DNA of 48,895 bases, from assembly GCA_003242955.1 (NCBI GenBank), contig QJPH01000283.1, positions 1 to 48,895 of the forward strand, written 5' to 3'. Within the stretch, counting starts at the first letter, position 1. Each line of letters opens with the position of its first letter. The translations under genes and the position numbers were made by a program. Shown here piece after piece: positions 16,793 to 41,674 of the stretch. The notes below the pieces were generated by a model. That model did not search any database and was not told the DNA's origin. It worked only from the letters and a program-made list of their open reading frames with translations. This DNA is from Candidatus Methylumidiphilus alinenensis. Lineage in GTDB: Bacteria > Pseudomonadota > Gammaproteobacteria > Methylococcales > Methylococcaceae.

Positions 16793-19700
16793 TTAAGCTG
16801 AAGCCTCATCAGTGTCGCTCCCATATCGCTGATCTATCTCTGGTTTGTGACTGGGCAACGATTCTGGAGGATACCATACTGTAAGAGTTTTCGTAGCTGT
16901 CATCATTTGTTCAAAGGGAATATTTTTTGACACGTTGTGGGAATAGGTGTCGCCGTTTGGACAACTGGTGTCATTGCTGAAGGATTTCTTTGGATCCGGG
17001 TATGGTTGGGCATCCCATTTGTAATCGATAGCCGGGCCACTTGGCGGAAACAAATTTCCAAGCTCATCGTAATAGCGCACAGGTAATGACCCTTCTTGTT
17101 GGGAGAGATAGGCTCCGGTCAAGTTTGCACCTTGCAACTGTGTGCCTTGCCAATTGACTCCGAACAGGACGGCTCCCTCAAGGGGCGAAGCCTCCGACTC
17201 GTCATTGGCGGGTGCGAGGTTGGCATTGGTGAGGTTTGCATCCGCCAAGAAGGCAAACGTCATGCTTATCCCTTCCAAATCGGCATCGGTGAAATCTGCC
17301 AAAGGCAGGTAGGCTCCATCGAAACTGGCCTTTTGCAGGGTAGTGGCCGTGCCTTGGAATTTGGCTTCAATCAAGGTCGCCCAGGTGAAATCGACTCCAT
17401 TGAGGTTCGCCCCGCAGAATGTGCAACTGTTAAAGTAGGATTTGATGAATTTGGCGGCAATTGATTTGTCTTGGTCACCCAGAATGCTGCCTGTAAAGTC
17501 GGTGCCATCAAAGTCCGCATACGTCATCTGCGCACCCACTAGATGGGCGCTGTTAAATTTAACGCCTACCTTGTTGTGCTTCTTGAGCTTGGCCTTGACG
17601 AAATCGGCATCGTCCAAGACGGCGTTTGAGAAATCCGCGCCATTCAGGATGCAGCCCTTGAGTGGCGCGGATATCCATTTTAGCCCATAGGCATTGAGTC
17701 CCGCCAAATCGGTCGGCAACCCAATGACGGTGGCCCCGGTGAGGTCTAGGCAGGACCAGTTCAAGCCGATGACGGAATAGGGGAGCGTTGCGTTGACGAA
17801 GCTTGTCCGATGGGTTGGGTCGGTGGATTGGATGATCGGCGCCGAGAAGACGGTATGGGTCAGATCGGTATTGTCGAAAATAGTGCCTTCCAAGTTAGCA
17901 TCGGTCAAAATAGTGGAGTACCCCTTAAGTAGCCATTCAGAGAATTTAGCGTTGGAGAAAGTAGCGCAGGAGAGTTTTGCACCCGTGAAATCAGTGCCCT
18001 CCAGTTTTGTGCTATCAAGGTGGGTGCGAATGAGGGTGGCACCCTGAAAAGAAAACTGAGTGAGATCCCTGTACGTTAAAATGGCATCAGTCAAAATTGC
18101 TTCTTTAAAACTCAAGTTCGAAAAGTCGATCAAAGAGAGGAAATCGATCCCCGTTAAATCTGCCCCGGTTAGATCAAGATCATACCAGGCGCCTCCATGC
18201 ACTATGGCCCCCTGAAATTTCGCCTCTTGCAGAGTACAGGTATTAAATGAGGTATCTGTAAGATCCGCTGCTCCCTCGAATACTACCTTGCTGAAATCCG
18301 AATTCCAGATATAACAGTTGCTCAGCTTGACACCGGTAAGATCGGCGCCCAAGCCGAGAGCCATGTCGCCGAGTTTCATGTTGGTCCACTCAGCCGAATT
18401 ATTAGAATGGAGATTCAACGTCGCCCCAATGAGTTTAGCCCCGAGCATGTTGACGTTAGATAAGTTGATGCCTTGAAGTATGGAGTTAGAGAGGTTGGTT
18501 TGGGTGAATGTGGGGAGGATGTTGGACGGCGGGTTGGGGCGGTCTTTCTCAAGCAGAAACAGAGTTTTGGCAGCGGGCCGGTAAAACGCTAGATTGTTGG
18601 CCTTGCCCCCTCCGAAGTAATCGCAGGCAAAGCCTAAGTCTGCCTCATTTAACAGGTCATAACCGCCGATGCCAGAGGAGGAACTGTAGACATCGGTAAA
18701 GGTTCCATCGCGGTTGTTTCGGATAATGCTGATCTTGCTCAAGCCAGGGCTGTAAAAGACCAAATGGTCAGGTCTTCCGCTGCCGGTGTAGTCAAAGGCA
18801 AAGCCGCGATCTAGGTGAGTGTATAACGCAAACCCAGCGATGCCAGAACTACTTGAGAAGAGGGTTGAGAAGGTCTTATCCCGGTTATTTTTGATGATCC
18901 AGATGGCACTTGAGCCAGGGCGATAGAAGACTAGATGGTCGAGTTTGCCGCTGCCATCGTAATCGAAGGCAAAGCCCAGGTCGTTATCCATTTTAAGGTC
19001 AAATTTGCTCCCTACACTGCCAATGCCGTCGCTGAAGCTGCACGTTGTGGAGAAACCGCTCGCAGCATCGTGTTGAATGAAATAAATGAGGCTCTCACCG
19101 GGGCGGTAAAAGACGAGATGGTCGGTGGCTCCGCTGCCATCGTAGTCAAAGGCAAAACCTCGGTCTCTCGTATCTCTTATGTCAAAGCCACCAATACCCC
19201 GATCAGCATACCTATTGGTGAAGGTTCCATCGCGGTTGTTTTTCATGATGAAGATACTGCCACCTGATGCGCCATCGTCGCCGCTGGGGCGATAGAACAG
19301 CAGATGGTCGAGCTTGCCGAACCCGTCGTAATCGAAGGCAAAGCCCAGGTCAACGCTAACCTTGAGGTCATAGCCACCAATCCCTTGATTGCTGGAATAC
19401 ACCTCCAAAAGCGTGCCATCGCTGGCGACTTTGGTAATTGAGGATAATTGGTTTCCGGGACTGTAGAAAACCAAGTGGTCTGGCGTACCGCTACCGTTAT
19501 AGTCAAAGGCAAACCCCAAGTCAACCGACAGGCCCAGCAGGCTATATTTCCCGATCCCAGCCGCCGTGCCTTTTGGGGCAAAAAGGGTAGAATAGCCAGA
19601 GTCGCTGGCCGTGGTCGGCTCCTGAGCCTGATCGCCGAAAGGTATTCCAGCCGCCAAGGTTAAATCGCAGTTGCTTAAGTCAGCGCCGGTAAAATCAGTA

Positions 19701-20380
19701 TGCGAGAGGGAGGTGCGTTGGAGTGTCAACCGTTCCTGGCGACCGCCTATTGTGGTGTTGATAAGCCTGGCTTCATCCAAGATGCAACCACCAAAAGAGC
19801 TAACTTGGGTGAGATCGCTTTTGGAGAGGTCGATGCCCGTGAAATCCATGCAAGCTAGGTTAGATTGGCCGAATTTTTGGTTCGAAAAGCTGTACCCCAT
19901 AGCAACAAGATCAGAAGCCTTGTAGCCCATGGTGATGAAATCTAGAGTGCTAAGATGATCCACTCCAACAGCATAGAAGCGCGCAGCCTTAGAGATATCT
20001 TGTTGCATCACAACCAAGGGACCTATCGTGTTGTAGATCGGCGGCCAGCCGACTTGCACATACCCACCACCCACCGCCTGTAAGACAAAAAAGCCTCTCT
20101 CTACCAAGATAAACTTAAAAATGGCGGCGTCTTTCAGCCTTTTGTTCCAACTGGTATCTGCCTTCTGGAATTGAAGGCCGGGATTCGCCAAGATAAAAGA
20201 ATTGTCGCCATTGTCGGCTTGAAACGTGATATAACCGTTTCCAAGGTGGCAAAGGTTGACTCTCTCTAGGTCGTGGGTGGATGAACTGATGTCTACCCCA
20301 TATATCCAGTTGAAATCATCCCAGATTCTTACAGGATGTCCGTCCGAGGTGTAAAGAATCCAGCGATTGATCGTTTGCAT
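16793..20380 (-). CDS. Giant pentapeptide-repeat / FG-GAP-like propeller protein
   Basis: 1195 residues; the ATG is preceded by AGGAGA at ideal spacing, and there is no signal peptide or membrane segment. Approximate layout: beta-trefoil- or fascin-like N-terminus 1-135; a first pentapeptide-repeat block (A/D-L-x-x motifs such as FTGADLSNCDL) 168-245; six repeats of about 57 residues at 275-612, consensus GFAFDYDGSGKLDHLVFYRPG-like with a GIGGYDL ending; a long second pentapeptide-repeat block 626-1090; and a polar tail of about 100 residues. The 57-residue units resemble FG-GAP/VCBS-type propeller blades and recur in the 2271-residue protein at 34859. Pentapeptide repeats form a right-handed beta-helix; a propeller inserted between two such blocks is unusual. 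Function unknown; binding or scaffolding is an inference. Possibly cotranscribed with the genes on both sides. Confidence 0.85.
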   Translation of the reverse strand: MQTINRWILYTSDGHPVRIWDDFNWIYGVDISSSTHDLERVNLCHLGNGYITFQADNGDNSFILANPGLQFQKADTSWNKRLKDAAIFKFILVERGFFVLQAVGGGYVQVGWPPIYNTIGPLVVMQQDISKAARFYAVGVDHLSTLDFITMGYKASDLVAMGYSFSNQKFGQSNLACMDFTGIDLSKSDLTQVSSFGGCILDEARLINTTIGGRQERLTLQRTSLSHTDFTGADLSNCDLTLAAGIPFGDQAQEPTTASDSGYSTLFAPKGTAAGIGKYSLLGLSVDLGFAFDYNGSGTPDHLVFYSPGNQLSSITKVASDGTLLEVYSSNQGIGGYDLKVSVDLGFAFDYDGFGKLDHLLFYRPSGDDGASGGSIFIMKNNRDGTFTNRYADRGIGGFDIRDTRDRGFAFDYDGSGATDHLVFYRPGESLIYFIQHDAASGFSTTCSFSDGIGSVGSKFDLKMDNDLGFAFDYDGSGKLDHLVFYRPGSSAIWIIKNNRDKTFSTLFSSSSGIAGFALYTHLDRGFAFDYTGSGRPDHLVFYSPGLSKISIIRNNRDGTFTDVYSSSSGIGGYDLLNEADLGFACDYFGGGKANNLAFYRPAAKTLFLLEKDRPNPPSNILPTFTQTNLSNSILQGINLSNVNMLGAKLIGATLNLHSNNSAEWTNMKLGDMALGLGADLTGVKLSNCYIWNSDFSKVVFEGAADLTDTSFNTCTLQEAKFQGAIVHGGAWYDLDLTGADLTGIDFLSLIDFSNLSFKEAILTDAILTYRDLTQFSFQGATLIRTHLDSTKLEGTDFTGAKLSCATFSNAKFSEWLLKGYSTILTDANLEGTIFDNTDLTHTVFSAPIIQSTDPTHRTSFVNATLPYSVIGLNWSCLDLTGATVIGLPTDLAGLNAYGLKWISAPLKGCILNGADFSNAVLDDADFVKAKLKKHNKVGVKFNSAHLVGAQMTYADFDGTDFTGSILGDQDKSIAAKFIKSYFNSCTFCGANLNGVDFTWATLIEAKFQGTATTLQKASFDGAYLPLADFTDADLEGISMTFAFLADANLTNANLAPANDESEASPLEGAVLFGVNWQGTQLQGANLTGAYLSQQEGSLPVRYYDELGNLFPPSGPAIDYKWDAQPYPDPKKSFSNDTSCPNGDTYSHNVSKNIPFEQMMTATKTLTVWYPPESLPSHKPEIDQRYGSDTDEASA
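17096..18510 (-). repeat. Pentapeptide-repeat coding block
   Basis: About 1.4 kb of degenerate 15-bp periodicity within the 1195-residue gene, encoding successive A/x-D/N-L/F-x-x units. This is the larger of two such blocks in the gene; the smaller one lies near 19645-19880. Confidence 0.75.
18545..19560 (-). repeat. Six 57-residue propeller-type repeats
   Basis: Six consecutive units of about 171 bp, each encoding GFAFDY-D-G-SG-K-L-D-H-L-V-F-Y-R-P and a Gly-rich GIGGYDL ending. One unit carries a short insertion (GDDGASGG) and the last is the most divergent (NNLAFYRPA). Very similar units occur in the gene at 34859-41674. Confidence 0.85.
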
Positions 20381-20459
20381 AGCGTTTCTCCTAAAAAAGA
20401 TTTGATTGATGAGAGGCTAAGGGCTGCGGGAAAGTGGTCGAAAATCGCCCTTTTTTCCT

Positions 20460-20490
20460 AAACCCCTCATCCATGATTGGAGAGGGGCTT
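20460..20490. repeat. Hairpin in leader of the 1195-residue gene
   Basis: AAACCCCTC (20460-20468) pairs with GAGGGGCTT (20482-20490). It lies between two minus-strand genes, about 80 bp upstream of the 20380 start. No T-tract follows, so a role in RNA stability or partial termination is only possible, not shown. Confidence 0.4.
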
Positions 20491-20520
20491 AACCAGAATA
20501 TGCTTGTTTAAAATGCTTGC

Positions 20521-23500
20521 TCAGATGGAAGGCGTTGAAGGTATCCAAGTCGCCATAGATGGCTCGGTGCGGCCTGATCCTTGCAGAATCTCGTAGTCCA
20601 AGGTATAGACATTGCGCCAGATATCCACATGCAGGCTTGCGGCGGCAATGCCGCTGACCTGGGCCAGAAAGCTACCGTCAGGATTGTAGATATCCAAACG
20701 ATAATCCGCAGCTTGCACGATGCCCGAGAGCGAGTAAAGGTACTTCAACACATAAAGGTAGCCTTTGGATTCGACGCTTACGTCAACGAGCTTGACGGCG
20801 GCGGTGCCCTCGCTGCGGAGGGGTATGGACCATTGGCTGCCGGTAAAGTCATACACGGGGTTGCCTGCATGGTCAAAGGAAACGATGCAGCCTTGGGGCG
20901 AGGCGTCAGTGGTTTGTAAGACCAAAATTCGATCCAGCGAACAGGTCAGGGCGACAGGGTTTTGAAGCAAGCCCTCCCGCGAGCCTTTGCCCGACAATAT
21001 CGCCGCCACTGGAGCCTTTGCATCCGGTTGGGGCGGCGCAAGCTTGACGACTTGCAGTTTGCAGGTGGCTTTGCTGAGGGCCACCGCGAAGCCTGCGGGG
21101 TGGATGGCCAAGTCATCTTGGGCACCCGTGAAAAGGCCGAAGGAATCCTTGGGAGAGACAATGAGCGGCTGGCCTTGGTCAAGGGACAGGGCGCGCAAGT
21201 ACATGACATTGCCTTCCGTGGTTGGCTCCAACAGAAATCCATCTGCGAAGGGCTGGGCCATGGTCGGTGGAGGCAACGCCAAACAAGGCATCAGATCGTA
21301 GCCGAAGCCAGGGAACTTCAGGCCGCTTTCGGGCGAACTTCCATCGCCCAATGCCTGGAAGGCATACAGTTGCCCGGAATAGGGCTGTTTGTCGGCATGG
21401 AAGCGCGGCAGGTTTTGCCCGGAGGCCCGCCATAAATAAGCAAAGGCAGACTTGGATTCGTTCAACTCAATGGCTCCTAAATAAGCCAGATTGTTGCCCA
21501 CGTTTGAACCATTCAGGCTGGACACCGTGTCCGCAGGGGCAGGGGTGGTGCCGGTCGCCGCCCAAACCCTTCCTTGGCTTCCGAAAACCAGCTTTTCCTT
21601 GAAGAAATAAGTGGTACCGGTGGAGAGGGGAACCAAGTTCTCGACAATGGCGAAAGCCGGCACAACCAAACAGTTGTTGGCGGTATCCGTCGGCAAGGCT
21701 GGCATCGGGCCGGTCTTGCCCCGCCCTGCCAGCCAGCCCGTGTCCGAATAGAAACATGCCAGCACCGTAAGGCTGCCGCCGGCCGGCAGGCTGGTAAAGA
21801 CGTGGCTGATGGCGCCTTGCTGGGTGGTGTTGTCCAGTTTGCCGTCATAGACATAAGTCGGGCCATCGTCATAGGTGGCGGTGATTCGATAATGGGTGGC
21901 CGTGGCCGGCCATTTGCCAAAATGTTTAGGGTCCGGGTTGACAGTGACCTGTAGAGCCATGGTGCGGAGGATGCTCAGTGACATGGTCGCCGGGCTGGAA
22001 GCCACCGCCACAATGGTTTCGGTGATGCTGGCAAGATCGGCGGCGGCGCCTATTGCTTTGGCAATCCAACCGATAAACGGTTCAGCATCCTCCAACGCCG
22101 ATTCGCCGAGCGTTTCCGCTATGTAAATCGCTAACTCGCTGGTAGCCTCGCTGACGAGAAAATCAGTTAACATGGAATAGGCAATGTTGCCGACCAATGA
22201 CAGAATATCCTCTGTGCTCACCGAACCTGACACCGCACCGCCTAAGGGCCCTTCCATCCCAGCTTCAAGAAGCATGCTGCCTTTGGAAGCAATTTTTTTG
22301 GTCATCTCGGACCATTCCGAGCCAATTTGATCAGCAGCCACTCCGTAGATGATGAATAGCGTAGGAATGGCTAAGTTGAAAAGGGATGTCCAAAAAAGCC
22401 CTTTGAAATCTAAGTCAAGCTCATAAGGGGGTTGACCAAGCCCACCTAGGCTGATGACGGCGGAACTCGCCTTGGGGTCGAATGTGAATGGAATATCCGA
22501 CCAATCAACCGGCAAGGGAATGGCCATGATGGTGTCCACCGGGGAAAGATACCCTTGGGATTCATTCAGGATACCCACCGGCTCGTTGTTTGGCCCAAAT
22601 TGATTGATTGTGACTTGAAGCCAGCGCAAACAGTTGTTTTTAAAGGATGCTGTCGCCGTGGCTGTGCTGGCATCATAAGCAAACTTGTTTTCCACCCCAT
22701 ACTGGGGCGTTAGTTGCTTCACCGTATAGTCTATTGCCGCATCCTTCAGGCTTGGGGATTGCCCGACAACGTTTTGGGTTGAACTGGCCAAAGGCACTTG
22801 CACAATGCCGGCTTGGGTCGTCCAACACTGGCCTTTCAAGTCATCGGTGTCCTTGCTTTTGCGTAGGATGTCCTGCAAAGGGAGGGCCATCATTTCTAGG
22901 GTTTCATCGGACCAAACATAGATATTCTTCCCGGTGGGATTGCCGGTTCGGTAATCTTTGCTCAGATGGTAATCACTCATCACCCAATTTCCGTCATGGT
23001 TCGTTGACTGGATATAGATGGAACCCGCAAGTTCGGTCAACCCTTCGGCATCATCGATCAAGGCATAAATTTTTTCGCCCCATGTGGTTTGCAGGGCCAG
23101 CAACTCAGGATGAAGGAAAATCAGGGTTTTGGCGGTGTCCAAGGCAGTGGGGTAATTGCCAATGTCGATGATGATTTTTTCATCGGGAGGCAGAGGGTTG
23201 GACCCCCATTGAGCCTTTAGCTTGGCCGGCAGGCCTGAGCCTTTGCGCTTGGCCACCCCGGCTGCGCGTGTCGCACGGGGAATATGCAGAGAAACCTGCA
23301 CAAGGCGATCAAGGGGATGTTCCTCACTGCGCTTGGGCGCGGTGACCCGCAGCATGACCAAAGCGTTGGACGGCAACTGCACAGACTCGGCGAAATGGCT
23401 GACCCGCTCATCAGGGAACAGGGCAAGGGCGGAATTGTCCCTGCGACTTTGGGCAAGGCTTTGCGGGGTGTGTGGGGTCAAGGCGTAACGTTGCACGCCA

Positions 23501-23571
23501 ACGTGGAGAGTGAATTTTTGCTGGGCTGCCAAGTGCCCTAAATCGAAGTGAAGGGTAGCGGTTTCAAACAT
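20521..23571 (-). CDS. Large protein of unknown function with hydrophobic core
   Basis: 1016 residues, no signal peptide. I do not recognise a family. The N-terminal third is beta-rich and polar. A central part (about 375-530) has several hydrophobic or amphipathic helices (FNLAIPTLFIIYGV, LVGNIAYSMLTDFLV, WIAKAIGAAADLASI) that could cross or insert into a membrane. The C-terminal 400 residues look like beta-propeller blades, with repeated patterns such as DVSVESKGYLYVL and DIWRNVYTLD that resemble NHL-type repeats. It sits between the 1195-residue gene and the mutarotase-like gene on the same strand, with gaps of 140 and 196 bp. The helix-plus-propeller plan echoes the 2271-residue protein, although no sequence repeat is shared. 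A pore-forming or membrane-associated binding protein is speculation. Confidence 0.75.
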   Translation of the reverse strand: MFETATLHFDLGHLAAQQKFTLHVGVQRYALTPHTPQSLAQSRRDNSALALFPDERVSHFAESVQLPSNALVMLRVTAPKRSEEHPLDRLVQVSLHIPRATRAAGVAKRKGSGLPAKLKAQWGSNPLPPDEKIIIDIGNYPTALDTAKTLIFLHPELLALQTTWGEKIYALIDDAEGLTELAGSIYIQSTNHDGNWVMSDYHLSKDYRTGNPTGKNIYVWSDETLEMMALPLQDILRKSKDTDDLKGQCWTTQAGIVQVPLASSTQNVVGQSPSLKDAAIDYTVKQLTPQYGVENKFAYDASTATATASFKNNCLRWLQVTINQFGPNNEPVGILNESQGYLSPVDTIMAIPLPVDWSDIPFTFDPKASSAVISLGGLGQPPYELDLDFKGLFWTSLFNLAIPTLFIIYGVAADQIGSEWSEMTKKIASKGSMLLEAGMEGPLGGAVSGSVSTEDILSLVGNIAYSMLTDFLVSEATSELAIYIAETLGESALEDAEPFIGWIAKAIGAAADLASITETIVAVASSPATMSLSILRTMALQVTVNPDPKHFGKWPATATHYRITATYDDGPTYVYDGKLDNTTQQGAISHVFTSLPAGGSLTVLACFYSDTGWLAGRGKTGPMPALPTDTANNCLVVPAFAIVENLVPLSTGTTYFFKEKLVFGSQGRVWAATGTTPAPADTVSSLNGSNVGNNLAYLGAIELNESKSAFAYLWRASGQNLPRFHADKQPYSGQLYAFQALGDGSSPESGLKFPGFGYDLMPCLALPPPTMAQPFADGFLLEPTTEGNVMYLRALSLDQGQPLIVSPKDSFGLFTGAQDDLAIHPAGFAVALSKATCKLQVVKLAPPQPDAKAPVAAILSGKGSREGLLQNPVALTCSLDRILVLQTTDASPQGCIVSFDHAGNPVYDFTGSQWSIPLRSEGTAAVKLVDVSVESKGYLYVLKYLYSLSGIVQAADYRLDIYNPDGSFLAQVSGIAAASLHVDIWRNVYTLDYEILQGSGRTEPSMATWIPSTPSI

Positions 23572-23734
23572 ATGGAATTCCTTATAGTTGGGTGCGTTTA
23601 AACAAACGCCTCTTTCGGAGAGGCTTGCAGAATTGTTTCATAGGATTTCTTGAAAAGCCATTGCTAGGGTGGCTTTCGGTCCTTCTAAGGCAACGGGACC
23701 AGTACCTGCATAGCAATGGCTGGAGATGAAATAG

Positions 23735-23751
23735 CCCGCCTGAAAGGCGGG
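23735..23751 (-). terminator. Possible terminator of the mutarotase-like gene
   Basis: CCCGCCT-TTC-AGGCGGG on the minus strand forms a perfect 7-bp GC-rich stem, followed by CTATTTCAT, a weak T-rich tail. It starts about 17 bp after the stop codon of the minus-strand gene ending at 23768. A second hairpin (GCCTCT/AGAGGC) lies near 23608-23625. Confidence 0.5.
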
Positions 23752-23753
23752 GG

Positions 23754-23767
23754 CTTGAAGCTTCAAG
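23754..23767. repeat. 14-bp perfect palindrome
   Basis: CTTGAAGCTTCAAG abuts the stop codon of the mutarotase-like gene and the terminator-like hairpin. It may extend the hairpin structure or be chance. Confidence 0.5.
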
Positions 23768-30059: not shown

Positions 30060-33000
30060 ATGAAAAGTAAAAATCTACTGTACTGGATTGCCGCTGTCTT
30101 CACTATGTTGGCTAGAACTGCCGCAGGCACCGATGTTACGGCTACATTCTATCCAACCGCTCCTCATTATATGATCTGTAATAAACAAGAGCATCATGGA
30201 AATCCAACTACCTGTAGTTTTACTAATAATAAGATCGTGGTTAGTTCCGATAGTTGGGGCGGGCATGCCTCGACTTTTACCCTGACTGGCACTAATCCGC
30301 CCAAGGTCGATATCTCCGGTGATTGCCAGCAGTCTTGGAATCAGGGGTCACCGATGAACTTCAATCTCTCCCCTGTTTGCCTGCCGAAACCAATAGATAC
30401 GCCGCCAACCGCAAATGGAGAACTGCTTGTTGATGAATGGTTCACTGATCTGCCATGGCATCAAAAGCTCAGCACCAAGGACAGCAATTTGATCGATGTG
30501 CCTTTTGTGATGCCCTACGCTGCCATCAATAAAGCTGCCGTCGATACCGATTACTGCAACCAAAGTCACGCTCGCTGCATGTTGCGTTACGGCATCGTCA
30601 ATGTGATGACGATGCATCGGACTGACACGCTTTATTTACCGAGTGATATACCCCCGTCTTACAACCAAGACTGTTCAGATGGTAAATGTGTCCAAGTGAA
30701 GTTGGATATCCAACGGATTCACAGCACTGACACTAATAGCTATGCAGCCGATCAGGCTAAGAACAATACCCACGACAACATTGCCAGTCTTGGATTCGCG
30801 ATTACTGAATCGACCATCTTTGCGCCCTGGCGTCCTTGGTACATGGGACATTACTGCGCTGTCAATTACGATCTTATGGTTGATTCGGTTTGTTATGAAG
30901 ACTATTTCACCACGCAGTTGGTCGCTGCGACGGATCTTTATGCCGGTGAAACATGGTTGAAAGAACACCCTGCCGTGTTTTACCCACAGTCACCTAAGGA
31001 CGGCAATCCGCCTGGCACACAACAATATGGTCATTGGTGTGTAACCGGTGCATATACTTGCTCCATGTACTTGGGTAAAGTCCAGTTCAATGACAATTCT
31101 GCACCTCAGGTCGATAGTTGCGATAAGAACTGTTTAAGCCAAGTGAACACCAAAACGGATGATCTGGACGCGCAGTTTAAAAAATCCCTGAGTGAGTTCC
31201 CCGATATTGGCCGCTATCCTTGGAAAGAGCCATCAGCTTCAGATGCTGCCGCAATCGATCCGCGCGATGCCTATAAAACCAATCCCTTCATTGGCTATTA
31301 TGGGATGACTAAATATGACGAGAATGATAACCTCAGATTCGTTACGATAACCCACCCTGAACTCAACACTGAGAACATTCCTTACGATGCGCCTCATTCC
31401 CTTTTTAGGGCCACAAACTACGTTTTGCCCAAGCAATGTACCCAGCAAAACTTTGCCGATGCGAGACTTGCTAAAGTTAAAGAAGGTGCGCCTGACCAGC
31501 TTGGCGCTGCGTTTCTCGACGCGATTAAGCACTTGAAAGACTGTTCCTTGAATTTTGAGATCCACACCAACGGATTTTTCGAGATTTGGACGCATCTCTA
31601 CGATGGCAAAATCGACGATCAAGCCATCAATGAGATTAAGAAGATGTCCCACGACGCGCTGGTTACCAACCAGTATGGCCGTACCATGTTCCTGTATGCC
31701 GGTGTGCCTGAGCAAATGATTCCGGCTTCCTTTGCCACCGCAGACCTAGCAGCGAATCCCACAGAACCGGCCACTTGGATTCCGACCCATGAGAAAATTT
31801 ACGGTTCAAGCCTGTATACCCAATACCTACCCATGGTGAACCCTGCCGACCAGACCCAGATAAGCAAGGCATATCAGGATGACTTCTGGCATGCCTTGTT
31901 TATGAGCAACCACATGAACCAAACCCCCGACCATTTTATCCGGGGCATTCGGGGGCGGACCTTGTGGCATAACGAGTATCGCTCCAATCTGTTGTATAAG
32001 GCGAAGGAAGTTCCTGATGCCAGTGAACCTCTTAAAGCAACACGTTTTGACGGTCAAGTACTCGCTCATGTTGACTTTCCTGCCGGATTCCAGAAAGAAA
32101 ACGCTTATTCGCCTTATCACGGCAATACCTGTGATTCCTGCCATATCCGTAATGGCAGCGGTATCCCTCTGATGCCTAACGGCAACTTGTCGGAACTCCA
32201 AGTGGGTAGTCGCTATATGAATCCAAACTATCAACTGTTTCCGGCCCCACTCGACTACACATACACGAATAAGGAGAAGGATCCTCATGATCCTACCACG
32301 AGGAAACAGGTTGTCACGCCGATGAAGCTAGTGCTCTTCGATCTAAAAAGCGGAGCCGATCAATGTGACGCAACTGGTCATACGGCAGCGCAACCCCCTT
32401 ACCGCAATAAATACATGAACTTCTATGGCAACAGTTTCCATGTGACGCGATTACCTCAAGATACGCCGGCTTATCAGATGCAGTATACGCCGGTGGCTAC
32501 AAGTGACCGCTTCTACCTTGTGGATAAGACAACCCGTCAACCAGTCGGCAGCAGCAAGCCATATCAGCCGCAACGGCCAGAAATCTCGAGCATGGTGGAT
32601 ACTGGAAATGCACGCTGTGACGACAACATGCCTATTAAACCCGACGCTGTTCTTGCCGATGCTTGGCCCGCAAACTGTGCTGATGTCAATGGCCCTGCCC
32701 TTAAGAAAGCCATTGAGGATGGCGAAATCGGCATTATGCATCTAGTGGGGAAACGACTCGGTAATTCTCCGCTGATCGAGATGATTCCCGATGCGAAAAT
32801 CAAGGACAATGTGAGTTCGCAGCAAAAAACCTTGACCTATGCGGGTTGTTACGGGAAGGTGGCCGGAACCCGGACTATTATTGTGGGCAAGGATACCTCG
32901 GCTGACTATCGCAGTTGCAGCACCCCCAACGATTGTTATATCAGCCGCTGGGGCTGGATTGGGGATCGCGCATCGCTTGAAGACCAGATAGCTAACGCAG

Positions 33001-33812
33001 CCCATGTTGAGATGAACATCACTTCAAAAGATGGGTTTAAGCAAATCCATCCCAATCCACAAGCACCCACACAACTGGTTCGCTACAGCCAAACCCTCTG
33101 TGGTCCCGCCGATCTGAGTTGCCAACAGAGCGCACCCAACTCCGATATTACCGAAGAAGAGGTCAGGAACATGGCCACCTACCAGCGTTGGATCGGCATA
33201 CCCAACCGCTCTCGATATCAAATTGCAACTTCGCTGGTTCAGCAAGGCGAAAAACAGTTTAGGGATTTAGGCTGTAGCAGTTGCCATGTCATAGACAAAA
33301 TCCCTTTTGTCGAAAAAGACAATATGTTGCCTGACGAAGAACGTCTTGCCTTGCAGAAACTTCAAGACAAGACTGGGCAAGTAACGGATTACCCCTTTGT
33401 TTCTTATTTGGGTACGGATTTGCTGATGCACGATATGGGATATTTATCCCAAGTTGCAAAAGCACCTGCGGGGGTGAGTGATTTCCGCAATGCTGAGGGA
33501 GTTATCAATAGTGCTTACGCAGGCTATATTCAAAAGATACGGACACCGCCCTTGAAAGGACTGAGGTTTAACCGGTTTGTCACCGACTCCAATCACAATA
33601 CGACAAAACCTATCCATGACAAAAAAATAGCACAGAATGACATAAAACCGGGCTGTGATTTTCTGCTGCACGATGGAAGGGCCTGCGATGCCATCGAAGC
33701 CGCATTTCTCCATGATGGCCCGGCCGTCAAACAATTGGGCATGATCGACAAGTTGAATCACCTCAATCTCGATCAGTTGACGGCGTTACGCGCATTCTTG
33801 TATTCGCTGTAA
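30060..33812 (+). CDS. Large secreted di-heme cytochrome / oxidoreductase-like protein
   Basis: 1250 residues, strong AAGGAG ribosome binding site, signal peptide (YWIAAVFTMLARTAAG). Two c-type heme motifs: CDSCH at 691-695 and CSSCH at 1072-1076. The C-terminal half, with TPPLKGLRF and the HDGRA ending near the heme, resembles DUF1111 di-heme oxidoreductases related to CcpA/MauG. The first 620 residues, Cys-rich and without heme motifs, are unknown to me and make the protein about twice the usual length. It probably works in the periplasm or at the surface, moving electrons from an unknown donor. A fragment of a second copy lies at 27.7 kb. It may be cotranscribed with the M23 peptidase. Confidence 0.8.
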   Translation: MKSKNLLYWIAAVFTMLARTAAGTDVTATFYPTAPHYMICNKQEHHGNPTTCSFTNNKIVVSSDSWGGHASTFTLTGTNPPKVDISGDCQQSWNQGSPMNFNLSPVCLPKPIDTPPTANGELLVDEWFTDLPWHQKLSTKDSNLIDVPFVMPYAAINKAAVDTDYCNQSHARCMLRYGIVNVMTMHRTDTLYLPSDIPPSYNQDCSDGKCVQVKLDIQRIHSTDTNSYAADQAKNNTHDNIASLGFAITESTIFAPWRPWYMGHYCAVNYDLMVDSVCYEDYFTTQLVAATDLYAGETWLKEHPAVFYPQSPKDGNPPGTQQYGHWCVTGAYTCSMYLGKVQFNDNSAPQVDSCDKNCLSQVNTKTDDLDAQFKKSLSEFPDIGRYPWKEPSASDAAAIDPRDAYKTNPFIGYYGMTKYDENDNLRFVTITHPELNTENIPYDAPHSLFRATNYVLPKQCTQQNFADARLAKVKEGAPDQLGAAFLDAIKHLKDCSLNFEIHTNGFFEIWTHLYDGKIDDQAINEIKKMSHDALVTNQYGRTMFLYAGVPEQMIPASFATADLAANPTEPATWIPTHEKIYGSSLYTQYLPMVNPADQTQISKAYQDDFWHALFMSNHMNQTPDHFIRGIRGRTLWHNEYRSNLLYKAKEVPDASEPLKATRFDGQVLAHVDFPAGFQKENAYSPYHGNTCDSCHIRNGSGIPLMPNGNLSELQVGSRYMNPNYQLFPAPLDYTYTNKEKDPHDPTTRKQVVTPMKLVLFDLKSGADQCDATGHTAAQPPYRNKYMNFYGNSFHVTRLPQDTPAYQMQYTPVATSDRFYLVDKTTRQPVGSSKPYQPQRPEISSMVDTGNARCDDNMPIKPDAVLADAWPANCADVNGPALKKAIEDGEIGIMHLVGKRLGNSPLIEMIPDAKIKDNVSSQQKTLTYAGCYGKVAGTRTIIVGKDTSADYRSCSTPNDCYISRWGWIGDRASLEDQIANAAHVEMNITSKDGFKQIHPNPQAPTQLVRYSQTLCGPADLSCQQSAPNSDITEEEVRNMATYQRWIGIPNRSRYQIATSLVQQGEKQFRDLGCSSCHVIDKIPFVEKDNMLPDEERLALQKLQDKTGQVTDYPFVSYLGTDLLMHDMGYLSQVAKAPAGVSDFRNAEGVINSAYAGYIQKIRTPPLKGLRFNRFVTDSNHNTTKPIHDKKIAQNDIKPGCDFLLHDGRACDAIEAAFLHDGPAVKQLGMIDKLNHLNLDQLTALRAFLYSL

Positions 33813-34551: not shown

Positions 34552-34592
34552 GAGAATTTACCGGCCATTTTTGATTTCAGACCGCTTCAGGT

Positions 34593-34762
34593 AAGGTGAT
34601 ATCCAATAAAGAACATCCCATCCAAAGGCCAAGCTGGGGCTTGGCGCTCTTGGAAGGAACGCCAAGCCCCAGCTTGGCAAGGTGATTTGCGGAGGAATTG
34701 TTCGTGATTTTCGTGGACAATTCATTTCAGTTTTGGTGGATTCATTATTGGAAATCACCTAA
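34593..34762. mobile_element. MITE-like element with nested inverted repeats
   Basis: Outer arms: AAGGTGATATCCAATAA and the reverse complement of the right end (AGGTGATTTCCAATAAT) match apart from a few bases. Inner arms: CCAAGCTGGGGCTTGGCG (34629-34646) is an exact 18-bp inverted match to 34660-34677 with a 13-bp loop, and each inner arm is itself partly palindromic. No gene. Exact ends and target duplication not resolved. Confidence 0.6.
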
Positions 34763-34784
34763 GGAGGCTGCGCGCAACACTCCC

Positions 34785-34811
34785 CTGCCCTGTGTCGTCA
34801 CAGGGCAGGGC
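34785..34811. terminator. Possible bidirectional terminator hairpin
   Basis: CCCTGCCCTGTG pairs with CACAGGGCAGGG around a 3-nt loop, a perfect GC-rich 12-bp stem between two convergent genes. No clear T-tract follows, so it is a candidate by position and stem strength only. Confidence 0.5.
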
Positions 34812-34858
34812 CTGGAAGTTGCCCCGCCCGTGCCGCTTTGAACTGATGCTGGCAATCC

Positions 34859-37800
34859 TCAAGATTGGGAGGTAAGGGCCAGGAAATCTTGCTGTTCAAG
34901 GGATGGCGGGGTTTCAACGGCCGAGGCGATCACCAAGGCGCAGATGGCACAACCGTCGACAACGCTAAAAGCGGAGAGAGCCAAACCGACATCCCCCCCC
35001 ACTAAGGCAAGCGGCTGTAAGATGCCGGGTATGTCTCCCAAGACCTTGCTGGAAAAACCTAGGTCTTTGCCAATGGCACTGCCTGGTGTTGTTGGGGACT
35101 TCATATAACCCACGACAGCCACCGCCAAATGCGTAATCGACAGCGCACAGGTCCACACCGCCATGATAACTTTCAATGCCTCACTGTCGGCTTTAACCAA
35201 ATCTAACTTAAGCGTGGGTTGAATACTCAATATCGCCAATACGGCAGTAATCCCCCAAAATGCCCATGTGTAAGTGGACACCTTACTGATATCGCTTGTC
35301 GCAAGGGGAAAGCTAAAAGCAGCGATGAGGAAATTTGACGTTATAAAGGCTGGGAATAGCTTTGGGTATGCCTCCATGACATTTCCTGCACTAAACTTAG
35401 AAAAAGAAGTCCAAAACAATATGAGACTACGCATTAGGCCTTGTACCATCCTAGAAATCCCAATAATGGCAGAAAGGGTGATGGAGATGATCCATTTTTG
35501 TATTGCGGGAGTGATCTGGACAGAAACGTCTTGCCTTGCAACCAAGCCGAAAAGGGGTGTCGATGCCAAACCCGCAGAACCCGCAGAGGGGTAATAGCCA
35601 GTGATGACCCGACACAGAACCGTCACTGGAATGGCCACCACCAGAGTAAGCAGGCTTAATATACTCAGCTTATCGCGGGTCAAAACTTCATAGAACCAAC
35701 TCAGGAAAGGAATCTCTATCGTGGCCGTGAGCAACCCGGTGTCAGGGTTGAACAGTGCGTCGATGATCTTATCGAATGCGGTCAGAAGACCGTCGGCTGC
35801 GGCTTTGGTGAGGGCAATGCCGCCGATAATGAGCGACTCAATGGCATCTAGCATTACTTTGATCAGGGTCTTGAAAAAATCGCCCACTGAGTGTTGTTGA
35901 AAAAGACCGTTAAAGTCAGTTCCTAACTGATTCAACACTTGTTTTAAGTCTTGATTATTCTCAATGCTGGTTAAAAAGGCACTGAAAATATCAGTCAATG
36001 GATCGTCGGCGCTTGCCGCGCCAACAGACAATCCTGAAGACGGTGTTTTTGCCCCTGGCATATTGGTCTTCATTTTTTGTATTCCCCAACTGCCCTGCAC
36101 GGCATGGGATTGGGGGTTTTTTCCATTTTTTCCTGCCGACATGGCGGCATGCGCGGTGGATTGTGAAGAGGGCAAGTCGCTCATTTGGTAATCCGTTCCC
36201 AAATCAGCCTTCAAGGTGTCAAACCAAGCCTTGACCTCGTCTTCTGCCGTGTCAAGAAAACCATCCACCGCAGGCAGGATTGTGTTTGTGATCAGCGGCC
36301 CGGCTTGCTGAAGCAAGGATTTCAGATAACTCTCGATCAGCCTATGAGTTTTCAGAATCTCATCAAAATTGAACAACACGCTCAAGGCTTCGATCAGGTC
36401 GTCGAGACCCTTTTCCAGCATGTCAAAGAACGAGCCGACGGCCGAGGCAATATCGTCAAGGAATTTGATCTGGCAGTGGAAAACCTGTTCGACGCCTTGC
36501 ACAAACAAGCGAATCCCAACGGAGACTACTTCGCCGACGACGACGATGATTTCATGGATGACTGTTTCCAACGCCCCGAGCAGCCAATTCCAAAAGTCCG
36601 TCCACCAATTGCCGAGCAACCTAGGCCCGGTTAAGCCGCTTTCGAGCGAAGGCTCCCAAGGTTTATCAGGAAGCTTGTCGATGGCCAGCAAGGCCTCGGC
36701 GTGGGTCAATGGGTTGAAAATGGGCTGGTTGCCGGACGGATTGTTTGGATCGAGGATAGTGAGTCTGAAACCCACTGTGGTAGCCGGAACTGCCGACCTC
36801 CGGTTGGGAATATTGGTGGCAAAATACCCCATGCCCGTCAGGTCGGGGTAGGCGATATAGGCCTGTGGTGCGGCGGCCAGCTTGAGAGCCTCGGCGGAGT
36901 GGTGTGCCAGCCGCCGCCCTTGGGTCAGGTGTGAGTAACTCAGGCGGGTGGATGTGCTATCGCCGCCAAAACCGACACCCTGCCGCATCTGGCCGATGGC
37001 GTCCGCCGCACTTTTGGGCTGACCGGCATTCTGGTCGCTGTCGCTAAACAACGGATTCCCCTGATAGTTTGAGACTTTGTTCATGTTGATTTTGTCAGGA
37101 TCGGGGTCGGTCTCGAGGGGATCGCTGTAAGCGGTCGTGACCCGCTTGTGGAACTCATGGTCGGGGTTGACCACGATGCGCTCATAGGGATTCATGAAGG
37201 TGGCCCAGACCCGCAATGACGTAGCGAACATATTGCCGACTTTCTTGCTGTTCTTCGGGTTGGGGTTGTCCACCACGGCCTCGCTGAAGAGTGTCAAGGT
37301 TCCGTCCACCCCCGTATGGATGTTGGCGAATTGATCTTCGTCCGGCCCGATGGTATAGGACACGCCATCGACAGTGATGGCGGTGTCGGGTTTCTCCGCC
37401 CAGATTTTGACCGGCTCATTGGGGCGTGGTGCTTTGTAATCGTCCACTACGGTCAGATGGGTTTGATAACGGGCGGTCAATCCTTTGGTGTTGTTGGCCG
37501 TGGCTTTGTCTTGGTCAAAATCCTGCATGAGCTGCGATTCGATGATGAAGTTGCGTTGGGTTTGCACCAAGGCATCTACTCGGATACCCATTACTTGGGG
37601 TAGAAAACCCGATGAGTCGCCAGTGTTGTAGCCTGAAACATACAATACCCCATTATGGGAACCGTCCAATGGGCTGATTTCTGCGATGGTTGTTACTCCG
37701 GTGGGAATCTCGCCTGAAGTTCCTGAGTCTGCATCCAAGATATAAAGGCTTCTAAATTCATCGCTGGACTCGTTTGTAATGTCCCCTGTCAACCCGAAAA

Positions 37801-40800
37801 TCACCGACAAATGCCCTTGCGGGTCTTGGTATAGCCGGGGCTGGCTTTCAATTTTGCAGGTGGCAGTTCTGGCCCGATAGGGTGCATTGCCAGTTTTCAT
37901 GGCTGTAGTGGGGTCAATGCTCCATAAGTTACCGAAATTATCCCCAAACCATAATTGCGGGTTGGTCTGACCGGGCCGTTGACCGTCGTCATAGGTAATG
38001 TCGGTGATATTGGTTTGGTTAGGCAACAGAAAGGCCTTGACTTGGTCGGCCTGATTGGGAGCAAAAGGCCGAACGATGTAAACCCCTCCTTGTATGGGGA
38101 TGTATAGCTCTAATTTCGCATCCGGAGTTTTGGAATTAGTCACAATTCTGCTCCCGGAAAAACCTGGAACAGCGGATTGGGCCCCGGTCAATGGTAGTAA
38201 TTGCTGGTCGCTGGAATCGGCATTTTTGCAATGGTTCAGGAAGAAGTTCTTGTCGTCATACAAGAGTGCCACATAAACCCGGTCCCCCAAAACCAAGGGC
38301 GCCAGTGTCACACCTTTGCAAGTGCCGCCGCCATTCGGGTTCGGCGGCAGCAAACTCCAGACAGGCTGAATGGAAGCACCAGCGGCAAACGTCGAGGTGT
38401 CGAACTTGTATAGCACCCCAGAATTATCAACGCAAAAAAGTGACGAACCTTGCAGCGTCGGTGGGGCAGTAAAGTTTGTATTCGTGGAATAGGCGCACAA
38501 AAGTTGCAAGCTGGCGGAATCAAACACCAAAAGACAACCGCCTGGAGAAGTCTCCCAACCATAAGTTGTCACATAGATTAACTGTCTGGCAGAGTCCACT
38601 ACAGGCGGGCTGGGAAAATTCGATGTCGCGAAACTGTAACTTGCCAACTCCTCCCCGGTATGTTGATCCAAACAGACCAACCGGCCATCCCAATTGGTAG
38701 AGTCATTCCCTGAACCTAGGGTTAGATAGAGCTTGCCTAGTCCAACGGTCAACCCGCCGTTTCCATCATATGCCTTTGAAGTCTTGAACAGATAAGGCGA
38801 ATCGTAGCGGTAAACGACCGTGCTGCCGTCGCTGTGCGTGGTCAGGCAATGGGACGCGCCGTAACTGGTCGATGCGACTTTCAACACACTGGACACGGAC
38901 GGGTTGATAACGTGCTGGGACGGGTCGATCATCGATTCTGAAACTAGGCAGAAGGCATTGGGGGAGTGGTCGCAATGCCACACCGTGCCGTCGTTGTTGG
39001 CGGAGATGTGAGCCGCTTTTGTCGTCTGGCTGTTCGGGGTGTATTGCTGGTCGGCGTAGCGCAGGACATTGCCGTTGCTGTCGCGTAGCCAAACCCGGCT
39101 GCTGTCCCCGGCGCTGACTTGACTCAACTCTTCCGGCGGCTGAGGATGCTGCGTCCAGGATTCGCCATCCCAACTGGCCAAGGGCGAGCCGTTATTCCGT
39201 AGGATGAAGATGGCCCCTTCCCCAGGACGGTAGAACACCAGATGGTCGAGCCTGCCGAATCCGTCGTAGTCGAACGCAAACCCCAAGTCAGCCGTGGAAA
39301 GAAGATCATATCCGCCAATCCCGGCCGCAGATTGGTAAAGGATCGAGTATGCCCCTTGTTTGTTCTGGATGATCGTGCTCTTGCCTGAACCAGGACAGTA
39401 GAAAAGCAGATGGTCCTGCCTACCATTGCCCGCATAGTCAAAGGCCATGCAGCGGTCGCTGGTCGAGTTAATCGGATACGTGCCTATCCCCACTCCTGGG
39501 TCGCCTTGACGATATATAGGGTTAAAGGATCCATCGTCCTTTTTCTCTAGGATGAAGATGGCACCGCTGCCTGGACGGTAGAAGACCAAATGGTCGAGCC
39601 TGCCAACCCCTTTCCCGTCAAAGGCAAAGCCCCGGTCAGCCTCGGAGGCAAGGTTGTATCCTCCGATACCCGAACCACCTTGGCCCATCGAATAGACGTG
39701 GCGGAAATCGCCACCGTTGTTTTCCAAGATAAAGATCGCGCCCTGCCCTGGACGATAAAACACTAGGTGGTCGAGCTTGCCTGAACTTTTGTAGTCATAG
39801 GCGAAACAACGATCCTGAGTGCCCTTTAAGTCGAACTCCCCAATGCCGCTGGTAAAGCTTTTTACAATGGAAAAACTACCCTTGTCATTGGCAATGACAG
39901 TGGCCGTCTGCTGTCCTGGCCGGTAGAACAGCAGATGATCCGGGTTGCCTGTGCCCTGATAATCAAAGGCCAAAGCCAAATCAGCGCTAGTCAGAACGTA
40001 ATCGCCAATCCCTGTGCTGCTGGAATAGACGGAAGAAAAGTTGCCGTTGTCATTCTTGATGATTTCAACAGAGTTCTCGGCAGGGTCATAAAAGAACAGG
40101 TAGTTTTGCCGACCAGTGCCTTCGAAATCAAAAGGGAAGCTCTGCACGGTGGTAGACGTTAGCTTCTCACCGCTGATCCCTGATTCTGATGCGCCCGGGG
40201 AATAAATGGGCGTAAAGGCCAGCCTCGCCGCCCATACACTGTTATCAATCCCCACTGAAACCGAACTCCCCTTGCTCCCCCCAGGGGCCAAATTCCAAGA
40301 ATCGCCATCGTGTCGGACGATCTCGCCTCCGGCTGTCGCCACCCATAGGTTGCCGGTCCGTCCGCTCGGTGCGTGTTGCAACACCGGATTCCACTGGACG
40401 GGCCAGCCTTGGAATGCGCTTGGAATATATTGAGCCTTTTGCGTGGCTGAATAAGATATTTCCACTGGTTTGGTCATGCCCATGCTTTCCCTGTCATTGG
40501 GTTTTGCCATTGCTACGGTGGTGGAGGAGGCCTTTGCGAACGTCATGTCCACGCCGCTGAAAATGGCAAGGGTGGGAGGGCTTGCAGTATCCACACAGGC
40601 GGCCGCATCAATGGTCGATAAACCTGGCGGCAGGAGATCAGCAATCGGTTGAGGGCCGGAAAGCACATAGAGGCCACTGTCGGGAAAGTTTTCCGCCACT
40701 ATTGTAATGTACTCAGAGCCGCGAATAAGATTAAAATAACAAAAACTGTCACTTGTGAATGGGGCAGACTCATAACCATACACGGCATCTATCAACCCAT

Positions 40801-41674
40801 TTTCCCAGCCAGGACTGTTCACTGGCCAAGGGTCGGAATCGGTGAGCTTTCTCCGTGAAATCTTACCGTCTACCGATAAATACCAGCCTTCCTTGAATAA
40901 GCAGAGTGACCCGAAAATATTGACAGCACCTGTCACCCCCTGTTGAAAAGAACGTGGCAAATTAGGCCAAGTTTCGGCGATTGCAATTGGCGCACTGGTT
41001 TTATTATTCGACAGATTCACCGTGACGTATTCACTGCCTCGAAATAGGTAGAGCGTTTTATCTATTGTGGCGGCGGCATCAATTCCCTCGCCATGCGCAT
41101 CCCAAATATTGTTGATGGGGTCATAGGAATGGGGTGAGCCTTGCGGATCAATGGCCCACAACGACCCGTCCCAGCCCATGGAAATATCAGTCGGTGTATT
41201 GCCGTTGGGCAGGGTAGAGGCAATCGGGGTGAAAGTTGGTTTAATCCCCTCTATCAGGCTGGGCGCATTGCCGTAGCGCTGGATGGCCGTTTGGGCGGCA
41301 TGGGAGCGCATGACTTCAGCCGAAGCTGTCTGGTGGCCCTTCCCGGCCTTGATGCGACGGTGTTGGCCTGCCCGCTTTTGGCCTTTCATCCGTGCGCGTA
41401 GGCTGCGTCGGGTGTGGCGGTTGCCTTGCGGCATTGCTTGCTTAGTCTGGATGGTTCCGTTCAAGACCTTCAGGATTCCTTCCAAACCGACCTCGGGCTG
41501 ACCAATGCCCAAGCCGCCATCCATCTGTCTTCCGTCCGGCCAACTAGCATGCAAACCGGTCAGCGGCAGCGGCTGGTTTCCGTTGAAAGAACTTCGCTTG
41601 TGTTCAAAATTAAACTCAGGTGATAGGTTTAACTCACTGGCGAAAGACTTGGAAATGAAGTTTGGCTGGGACAT
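34859..41674 (-). CDS. Giant hemopexin / tectonin / FG-GAP-like propeller protein with membrane-spanning C-terminus
   Basis: 2271 residues; AGAGGA 8 nt before the ATG; no signal peptide. Approximate layout: polar start with a strongly basic stretch at 86-115; a tectonin-like blade at 166-190; four hemopexin-like repeats between 195 and 380 (IDAA, then YLFRGSEYV; FNLIRGSEYITI; IDAA, then AIFSGVDM); six 57-residue repeats at 505-860 matching those of the gene at 16793; tectonin-like units (SSRVWLRDSNGNVLRY, NNDGTVWHCD); a PQQ-like propeller near 950-1250; a long middle region; amphipathic helices from about 1650; and six or seven hydrophobic helices from about 1950 to the end. It looks like a chain of binding propellers attached to a membrane-inserting end. 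Function unknown; a contact-dependent or toxin-like role is inference only. Transcribed alone, with large gaps on both sides. Confidence 0.8.
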   Translation of the reverse strand: MSQPNFISKSFASELNLSPEFNFEHKRSSFNGNQPLPLTGLHASWPDGRQMDGGLGIGQPEVGLEGILKVLNGTIQTKQAMPQGNRHTRRSLRARMKGQKRAGQHRRIKAGKGHQTASAEVMRSHAAQTAIQRYGNAPSLIEGIKPTFTPIASTLPNGNTPTDISMGWDGSLWAIDPQGSPHSYDPINNIWDAHGEGIDAAATIDKTLYLFRGSEYVTVNLSNNKTSAPIAIAETWPNLPRSFQQGVTGAVNIFGSLCLFKEGWYLSVDGKISRRKLTDSDPWPVNSPGWENGLIDAVYGYESAPFTSDSFCYFNLIRGSEYITIVAENFPDSGLYVLSGPQPIADLLPPGLSTIDAAACVDTASPPTLAIFSGVDMTFAKASSTTVAMAKPNDRESMGMTKPVEISYSATQKAQYIPSAFQGWPVQWNPVLQHAPSGRTGNLWVATAGGEIVRHDGDSWNLAPGGSKGSSVSVGIDNSVWAARLAFTPIYSPGASESGISGEKLTSTTVQSFPFDFEGTGRQNYLFFYDPAENSVEIIKNDNGNFSSVYSSSTGIGDYVLTSADLALAFDYQGTGNPDHLLFYRPGQQTATVIANDKGSFSIVKSFTSGIGEFDLKGTQDRCFAYDYKSSGKLDHLVFYRPGQGAIFILENNGGDFRHVYSMGQGGSGIGGYNLASEADRGFAFDGKGVGRLDHLVFYRPGSGAIFILEKKDDGSFNPIYRQGDPGVGIGTYPINSTSDRCMAFDYAGNGRQDHLLFYCPGSGKSTIIQNKQGAYSILYQSAAGIGGYDLLSTADLGFAFDYDGFGRLDHLVFYRPGEGAIFILRNNGSPLASWDGESWTQHPQPPEELSQVSAGDSSRVWLRDSNGNVLRYADQQYTPNSQTTKAAHISANNDGTVWHCDHSPNAFCLVSESMIDPSQHVINPSVSSVLKVASTSYGASHCLTTHSDGSTVVYRYDSPYLFKTSKAYDGNGGLTVGLGKLYLTLGSGNDSTNWDGRLVCLDQHTGEELASYSFATSNFPSPPVVDSARQLIYVTTYGWETSPGGCLLVFDSASLQLLCAYSTNTNFTAPPTLQGSSLFCVDNSGVLYKFDTSTFAAGASIQPVWSLLPPNPNGGGTCKGVTLAPLVLGDRVYVALLYDDKNFFLNHCKNADSSDQQLLPLTGAQSAVPGFSGSRIVTNSKTPDAKLELYIPIQGGVYIVRPFAPNQADQVKAFLLPNQTNITDITYDDGQRPGQTNPQLWFGDNFGNLWSIDPTTAMKTGNAPYRARTATCKIESQPRLYQDPQGHLSVIFGLTGDITNESSDEFRSLYILDADSGTSGEIPTGVTTIAEISPLDGSHNGVLYVSGYNTGDSSGFLPQVMGIRVDALVQTQRNFIIESQLMQDFDQDKATANNTKGLTARYQTHLTVVDDYKAPRPNEPVKIWAEKPDTAITVDGVSYTIGPDEDQFANIHTGVDGTLTLFSEAVVDNPNPKNSKKVGNMFATSLRVWATFMNPYERIVVNPDHEFHKRVTTAYSDPLETDPDPDKINMNKVSNYQGNPLFSDSDQNAGQPKSAADAIGQMRQGVGFGGDSTSTRLSYSHLTQGRRLAHHSAEALKLAAAPQAYIAYPDLTGMGYFATNIPNRRSAVPATTVGFRLTILDPNNPSGNQPIFNPLTHAEALLAIDKLPDKPWEPSLESGLTGPRLLGNWWTDFWNWLLGALETVIHEIIVVVGEVVSVGIRLFVQGVEQVFHCQIKFLDDIASAVGSFFDMLEKGLDDLIEALSVLFNFDEILKTHRLIESYLKSLLQQAGPLITNTILPAVDGFLDTAEDEVKAWFDTLKADLGTDYQMSDLPSSQSTAHAAMSAGKNGKNPQSHAVQGSWGIQKMKTNMPGAKTPSSGLSVGAASADDPLTDIFSAFLTSIENNQDLKQVLNQLGTDFNGLFQQHSVGDFFKTLIKVMLDAIESLIIGGIALTKAAADGLLTAFDKIIDALFNPDTGLLTATIEIPFLSWFYEVLTRDKLSILSLLTLVVAIPVTVLCRVITGYYPSAGSAGLASTPLFGLVARQDVSVQITPAIQKWIISITLSAIIGISRMVQGLMRSLILFWTSFSKFSAGNVMEAYPKLFPAFITSNFLIAAFSFPLATSDISKVSTYTWAFWGITAVLAILSIQPTLKLDLVKADSEALKVIMAVWTCALSITHLAVAVVGYMKSPTTPGSAIGKDLGFSSKVLGDIPGILQPLALVGGDVGLALSAFSVVDGCAICALVIASAVETPPSLEQQDFLALTSQS
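39160..40170 (-). repeat. Six 57-residue propeller-type repeats in the 2271-residue gene
   Basis: Six units with the same D-H-L-v-F-Y-R-P-G core and GIGGYDL-type endings as in the gene at 16793-20380. The first unit (NYLFFYDPA) is the most divergent. Some units have 2-4 extra residues in the loop before the Gly-rich ending. Confidence 0.85.

Follow-up and report, generated by a model that had tools for sequence, protein, structure and literature searches.

A predicted six-bladed propeller shared by two large proteins of Candidatus Methylumidiphilus alinenensis: a candidate portable lectin module resembling the umbrella-toxin protein UmbA4

In the umbrella toxins of Streptomyces coelicolor, the UmbA4 protein ends in a six-bladed propeller lectin that binds teichuronic acid, and the complex with this ligand has been solved, as set out in PMC13274773. 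Umbrella toxins also contain UmbC, which consists of ALF repeats followed by a toxin end, and UmbA proteins, whose trypsin-like domains have no catalytic activity according to PMC11062931. Here we analyzed a stretch of 48,895 nucleotides from Candidatus Methylumidiphilus alinenensis (assembly GCA_003242955.1, contig QJPH01000283.1; the whole stretch is hereafter the window), in which two large proteins, P0001 and P0002, share a block of six repeated units. We consider it rather probable that this block is a self-contained six-bladed propeller acting as a portable lectin module that binds surface glycans. A repeat that had no prior explanation is now linked to lectins of a class for which a complex with the ligand has been solved, and the question of its ligand becomes directly testable.

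A six-unit block and its predicted fold

The open frames of P0001 (1195 residues) and P0002 (2271 residues) are present at 16793-20380 and 34859-41674, respectively, both on the minus strand, as are all parts of these two genes given below. The six unit loops begin at residues 293, 350, 412, 473, 530 and 587 of P0001 (spacing of 57, 62, 61, 57 and 57 residues) and at residues 516, 571, 627, 686, 746 and 802 of P0002 (spacing of 55, 56, 59, 60 and 56 residues), with a unit core in both proteins of approximately D-Y-x-G-S-G-K-x-D-H-L-x-x-Y-R-P. The first-pass annotation, made from the sequence alone, had described a 57-residue unit occurring six times in both proteins; the six units were borne out by the open frames, the unit positions, the identity between the blocks and a DNA repeat search that returned six copies per gene, while the period proved to be variable, at 55-62 residues. 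The two blocks, module 1 (P0001 residues 263-613, 18542-19594) and module 2 (P0002 residues 487-830, 39185-40216), share 43% identity across an alignment of 345 columns with a BLASTP E of 2e-81 in a single comparison, and chance likeness is thereby excluded. A profile search of the genome of the window found just these two genes with an intact block, and a further weak match on another contig (E 0.02) is interrupted by stops.

AlphaFold2 was given module 1 with an input of four rows, namely both window copies, the copy from Magnetospirillum (L009) and one from Nonomuraea (L010), both described below. The resulting model of the P0001 block is a six-bladed propeller with a predicted local distance difference test score (pLDDT) of 82.6 and a predicted template modeling score (pTM) of 0.86, in agreement with the fold that the first-pass annotation had proposed to check in this way. 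The model has 24 strands, arranged as a single leading strand, five groups of four, and a closing group of three, and the first strand (residues 2-6) occupies the position in which the last blade would have its fourth strand; the first ten-residue block has a pLDDT of only 60, and residues 9-23, which form a linker, lie below 50. Propellers usually close in this manner, with the first strand supplying the strand that the last blade is missing. So closed, the predicted model of module 1 is a ring of six four-stranded blades, and six units are present in all of the complete module-bearing proteins (8/8). Together, these data indicate that the shared block is probably a six-bladed β-propeller of the VCBS/FG-GAP kind, its closure being predicted from the model of module 1 alone. 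With the last blade completed by the first strand, as predicted, the two ends would lie together, and the ring could therefore be accommodated in a loop of a different repeat scaffold.

The loop chemistry of the units was compared with the calcium blade motif Dx[DN]xDG, which has Asp at loop position 5 and Asp or Asn at position 3 as given in PMC3123361. Across 49 units from nine proteins, position 1 is Asp and position 6 is Gly without exception (49/49 each), position 9 is Asp in 43/49, and position 3 is Asp or Asn in 21/49. Position 5 is Ser or Thr in 43/49 units and Asp in none (0/49), and three additional units likewise have no Asp there, so that the module units depart from the calcium blade as that source defines it. 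Variant loops lacking Asp at position 5 may still bind calcium.

Carriers of the module and the umbrella-toxin match

Among PDB chains, UmbA4 (9oee) was the only one to match the module by sequence at E <= 0.01 (E 4.4e-6), which places the module among domains related to the UmbA lectins. UmbA4 also took rank 1 among the matches listed in a VIA-align structural comparison, at a structural identity of 16%; PVL and other seven-bladed lectins were absent from the best 50 VIA-align matches, an absence that carries no weight either way.

Module loci outside the window came from a scan of genome contigs (two), plasmid records (three) and a search of the Magnetospirillum family (two genomes). The contig scan was narrow, with 81 stretches that fit the peptide pattern and 2 confirmed, and the rarity estimates may be too low. 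The module was found in 1/151 relatives and 1/398 genomes of the same phylum, both being the window's own genome; in 1/296 genomes of a sample of the Nonomuraea phylum and 1/121 of a sample of the Nonomuraea order, both being the Nonomuraea genome already known; and in 3/55 genomes of the family of the Magnetospirillum genome, which is itself one of the three. It comes after an M43-type domain in Magnetospirillum moscoviense (L009) and after an astacin-type domain in genome G1003 (L058), being the C-terminal domain in both, and after a pro-kumamolisin/S8-type domain in genome G1008 (L059), where the gene runs off the contig end. A second module piece of G1008 lies at another contig end (L060) and is perhaps part of the same gene. 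Two Nonomuraea proteins (L010 9137-11557, L014 11131-13545) have the module attached to a trypsin-like domain and followed by about 180 residues that have no family assignment. Carriers of the P0002 type were found on Kovacikia minuta plasmid pA and on a Streptomyces plasmid, the core of the latter having only 22% identity over 369 residues. The block is a rare portable module, placed in unrelated scaffolds, and literature searches found no paper on this combination. Both the similarity to a glycan-binding propeller and the combinatorial attachment of the six-unit domain are apparent at the level of sequence.

At both Nonomuraea loci the module gene adjoins one that encodes ALF repeats together with a DddA-like end, with a DddA-like match over the Pfam cut-off in L014 only and not in L010. 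Since this adjoining gene shows the UmbC layout, the Nonomuraea module is, by analogy, most likely the lectin head of an UmbA protein. Against the FG-GAP_3 profile (PF13517, cut-off of 26.9 bits) the carriers scored unevenly: P0001 lies exactly at the cut-off (26.9) and P0002 far below it (13.8), L009 (36.3) and L058 (27.3) lie above, L059 (23.7) and P0012 (22.6) below, and no PF13517 match was listed for L010, L014 or P0011.

In a tree of the modules, those of P0001, P0002 and Kovacikia form one clade (100/100), inside which the branching is not settled (approximately unbiased test, AU p 0.44). This topology favors a common origin for the two window modules as against those of the protease-type carriers, but not a recent copy; a recent duplication within the genome was rejected on the same unsettled order and on the 43% identity of the copies. 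Because these three modules form one clade, the module most likely passed between the two scaffold families, in either direction, or reached both from one donor, and a similar type of ligand for both window copies is plausible.

On the lectin reading, the module would be an added binding head for a cell-surface polysaccharide, either of other bacteria or of the organism's own envelope. We infer that it binds glycan, is exposed at the surface and has a steering role for its carriers. This class of lectin head is apparently portable beyond umbrella toxins, since it lies within repeat scaffolds and on several protease-type domains in different phyla. The same carriers bear on the view that the module is an integrin-like adaptor, docking its carriers to a protein partner and not acting as a lectin, which we consider unlikely: the one known structure that it matches significantly by sequence is that of a glycan-binding lectin, and its presence on protease-type and umbrella-type proteins is in keeping with targeting to surfaces.

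Host scaffolds of the module and the P0003 family

P0001 comprises an N-terminal domain, a pentapeptide scaffold that encloses module 1, and a C-terminal CPxGxxY tail, as delimited from the open frame and Pfam. It is a pentapeptide-repeat protein by PF00805, which matched 13 stretches with 225 bits (cut-off of 20.2 bits; E 3.6e-68 for the whole protein). The module is flanked on both sides by stretches of the pentapeptide type, one recognized by eye before it (about residues 155-262, 19595-19918) and the main scaffold past it (about residues 614-1121, 17018-18541). The tail, CPNGDTY...MMT (16868-16963), resembles the CPSGLRY... tail of the pentapeptide proteins of Xenorhabdus, G446 and G484. 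No module-free counterpart of P0001 with the same flanks was found, and BLAST of P0001 or the G241 protein against other pentapeptide proteins gave a best E of 0.43. A fascin-like trefoil N-terminus common to P0001 and the Xenorhabdus pentapeptide proteins was not shown, as hhalign aligned only about 20 columns of pentapeptide-like letters. PHROGs matches were confined to families with no assigned function, in the pentapeptide part; plasmid searches for relatives of the P0001 N-terminus and of P0010, as well as searches of phage and viral contigs, returned nothing useful.

P0002 comprises a hemopexin/tectonin-like head that encloses module 2, a PQQ-like region, and a C-terminal core with an Ig-like part and a hydrophobic helical part. 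The first-pass annotation had placed the repeats in otherwise unrelated architectures, a pentapeptide helix in one protein and hemopexin and PQQ-like propellers plus a membrane end in the other. The pentapeptide scaffold is as described above; in P0002, Pfam gave hemopexin below its cut-off (16 bits against 21.3), tectonin at the cut-off (29.9 against 30) and weak PQQ-like matches, and the putative membrane end is a conserved, hydrophobic C-terminal region. P0001, P0002 and P0003 (described below) have no hydrophobic N-terminal stretch, which is the sole support for the earlier claim that P0001 and P0002 lack signal peptides, no dedicated predictor having been run.

Module 2 lies within a tectonin-type stretch, with tectonin-like sequence directly upstream (about residues 440-486, 40217-40357, from the alignment with a module-free relative on Kovacikia plasmid pB) and directly downstream (about residues 831-950, 38825-39184, from Pfam and the same alignment). 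Residues 64-445 of this pB relative align with P0002 residues 74-477, and residues 481-723 with P0002 residues 852-1094, so that about 35 residues in the relative stand against about 375, module included, at the matching site of P0002. The C-terminal core (34859-37414), which had no Pfam match, also occurs in relatives from Kovacikia pB, Stanieria and Variovorax that lack the module, a module search of these plasmid records having given no match. Relatives of the core with differing heads (tectonin-like, LamG and others) were found in plasmid records of Kovacikia, Stanieria, Variovorax and Streptomyces and in genomes G005 and G469. The two Kovacikia minuta relatives of P0002 are split genes, that of pB by an IS66 transposase gene (L024 5169-12388) and that of pA by a shift of reading frame close to P0002 residue 230 (L013 10476-11336). 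The module would thus be an insert that interrupts a pentapeptide-repeat scaffold in P0001 and tectonin-like repeats in P0002, the latter joined to a conserved hydrophobic C-terminal core.

Beside P0001 lies P0003 (1016 residues, 20521-23571, minus strand), for which searches of Pfam, NCBIfam, PHROGs and PADLOC gave no match within the limits applied. Xenorhabdus bovienii has a relative (29% over 1020 columns) to which that of G446 is 98% identical; others are encoded in G484, G241 and, in two copies, G007, and P0003-type genes that lie at contig ends occur in G009 and G319. Since G446 belongs to the same class as the window's genome, its likeness to Xenorhabdus points to Gammaproteobacteria as that class. 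Six loci could be tested, as no contig end interrupts them (window, Xenorhabdus, G446, G484, G007 and G241), and in all six the P0003-type gene has a large pentapeptide gene no more than 5 kb away; G446, G484 and Xenorhabdus have one operon type, leaving four clearly different versions of the locus. These genomes have few pentapeptide frames at E <= 1e-5 (a single frame in G007, in G484 and in G241, two in the window's genome, three in G446), and we therefore judge, without a computed estimate, that chance is a poor explanation of this linkage. A recurring gene pair, of a P0003-type protein and a large pentapeptide protein, is thus brought to light. The two protein types may share a short stretch, for which the matches are weak (E 0.006 and 0.009). 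The P0003 relatives of G007 and G319 and the G007 pentapeptide protein do have a hydrophobic N-terminal stretch, a hint that some lineages export the pair.

Other genes occur at these loci. In the Xenorhabdus-type operon, genes for glycine-rich, collagen-like proteins separate the P0003-type gene from the pentapeptide gene (L027 8268-10196, L047 12511-17165), with three tandem copies in G484, and the pair is followed by a polyketide synthase gene in Xenorhabdus and G446. A gene for a 594-residue LBP/BPI/CETP-like protein holds the intermediate position in G241 (L048 7026-8810; PF02886 E 1.5e-7). In G007, ABC transporter, HlyD-like and TolC-like genes, assigned by eye, lie close to the P0003/pentapeptide trio (L033 1370-6584), and the pentapeptide protein ends in NHL repeats.

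There is a small chance that P0001 and P0003 are components of an assembly not described before, secreted or located at the surface and with an adhesive or antagonistic function, equipped here with a lectin head of the umbrella-toxin type, and that P0002 is a second, independent user of the same head. Umbrella toxins swap heads to change targets, which offers an analogy. In profile or tblastn searches, the module was absent from all five of the other pentapeptide proteins encoded beside P0003-type genes.

The first-pass annotation had instead joined P0001 and P0002 in one undescribed system, with a common ligand or partner bound by the module. The two genes lie within one 25-kb stretch as the only intact module-bearing genes found in the genome, and their modules share a clade with that of Kovacikia. 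Against this, each other carrier searched has a single module-bearing gene, G1008 having pieces at two contig ends (counted at E 1e-5 for G548, G549 and plasmid records W01 and W02 and at E 1e-10 for G1003 and G1008, L014 being left out). The P0002 core occurs in 2/398 and the P0003 family, taken as the marker of the P0001 neighborhood, in 5/398 genomes of the same phylum, and among 61 relatives the P0003 family occurs in three (G000, the window's genome, G007 and G009) and the core in two (G000 and G005); in both samples the overlap is G000 only, although the samples are small and a weak link between the families could escape them. In addition, the P0002 core has module-free relatives, P0003-type genes have module-free pentapeptide partners, and the module also sits on unrelated protease-type proteins. 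One system of P0001 and P0002 is thus not supported, and we regard it as very doubtful. The same annotation had set against itself the case of a ubiquitous FG-GAP variant whose two gene types show no tendency to occur together; at 1/151 and 1/398 the module is not ubiquitous, whereas the samples showed no tendency of the two types to occur together, so that one half of this case holds in them and the other does not. What survives of its common ligand is the similar ligand type discussed above: a common module would mean a common kind of binding head, not necessarily a common pathway. A ligand-free structural spacer, as which the module might be read from its place within the repeat scaffolds of P0001 and P0002, is the least likely alternative, being senseless where the module is a C-terminal domain (L009, L058).

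Elsewhere in the window, genes for a multicopper oxidase and a tyrosinase with a twin-arginine translocation (TAT) signal lie side by side (42726-46959), a 2763-residue protein has, by eye, a LamG-like start and RHS/YD-type repeats (1224-9515), and a 1250-residue protein is a putative di-haem oxidoreductase (30060-33812; PF06537 E 1.3e-7).

Comparison with known systems

Large pentapeptide-repeat proteins (PF00805) have the same scaffold as P0001, but the five other P0003-linked pentapeptide genes are without the module. Tectonin lectins (PF19193; PDB 5fsb) resemble the flanks of the module in P0002, whereas the module itself is not tectonin and interrupts the tectonin-like stretch. The FG-GAP_3/VCBS propellers (PF13517, including the PVL lectin and TcB) have the same blade pattern as the module; the VCBS examples taken from PMC8023676 are, however, seven-bladed, and the module is predicted to be six-bladed and is without the calcium Asp at position 5. 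Among umbrella toxins, UmbA proteins have an N-terminal trypsin-like domain, for which there was no match in P0001 or P0002 and which is present in the Nonomuraea carriers L010 and L014; ALF repeats had no match among the 12 window proteins scanned with Pfam, the rest of the window's genome not having been searched. UmbA4 keeps Asp at loop position 5, where the module mostly has Ser or Thr. UmbA4 and the module are alike in the six-bladed propeller, predicted for the module, and in Nonomuraea the module also follows a trypsin-like domain and lies beside an ALF-repeat gene.
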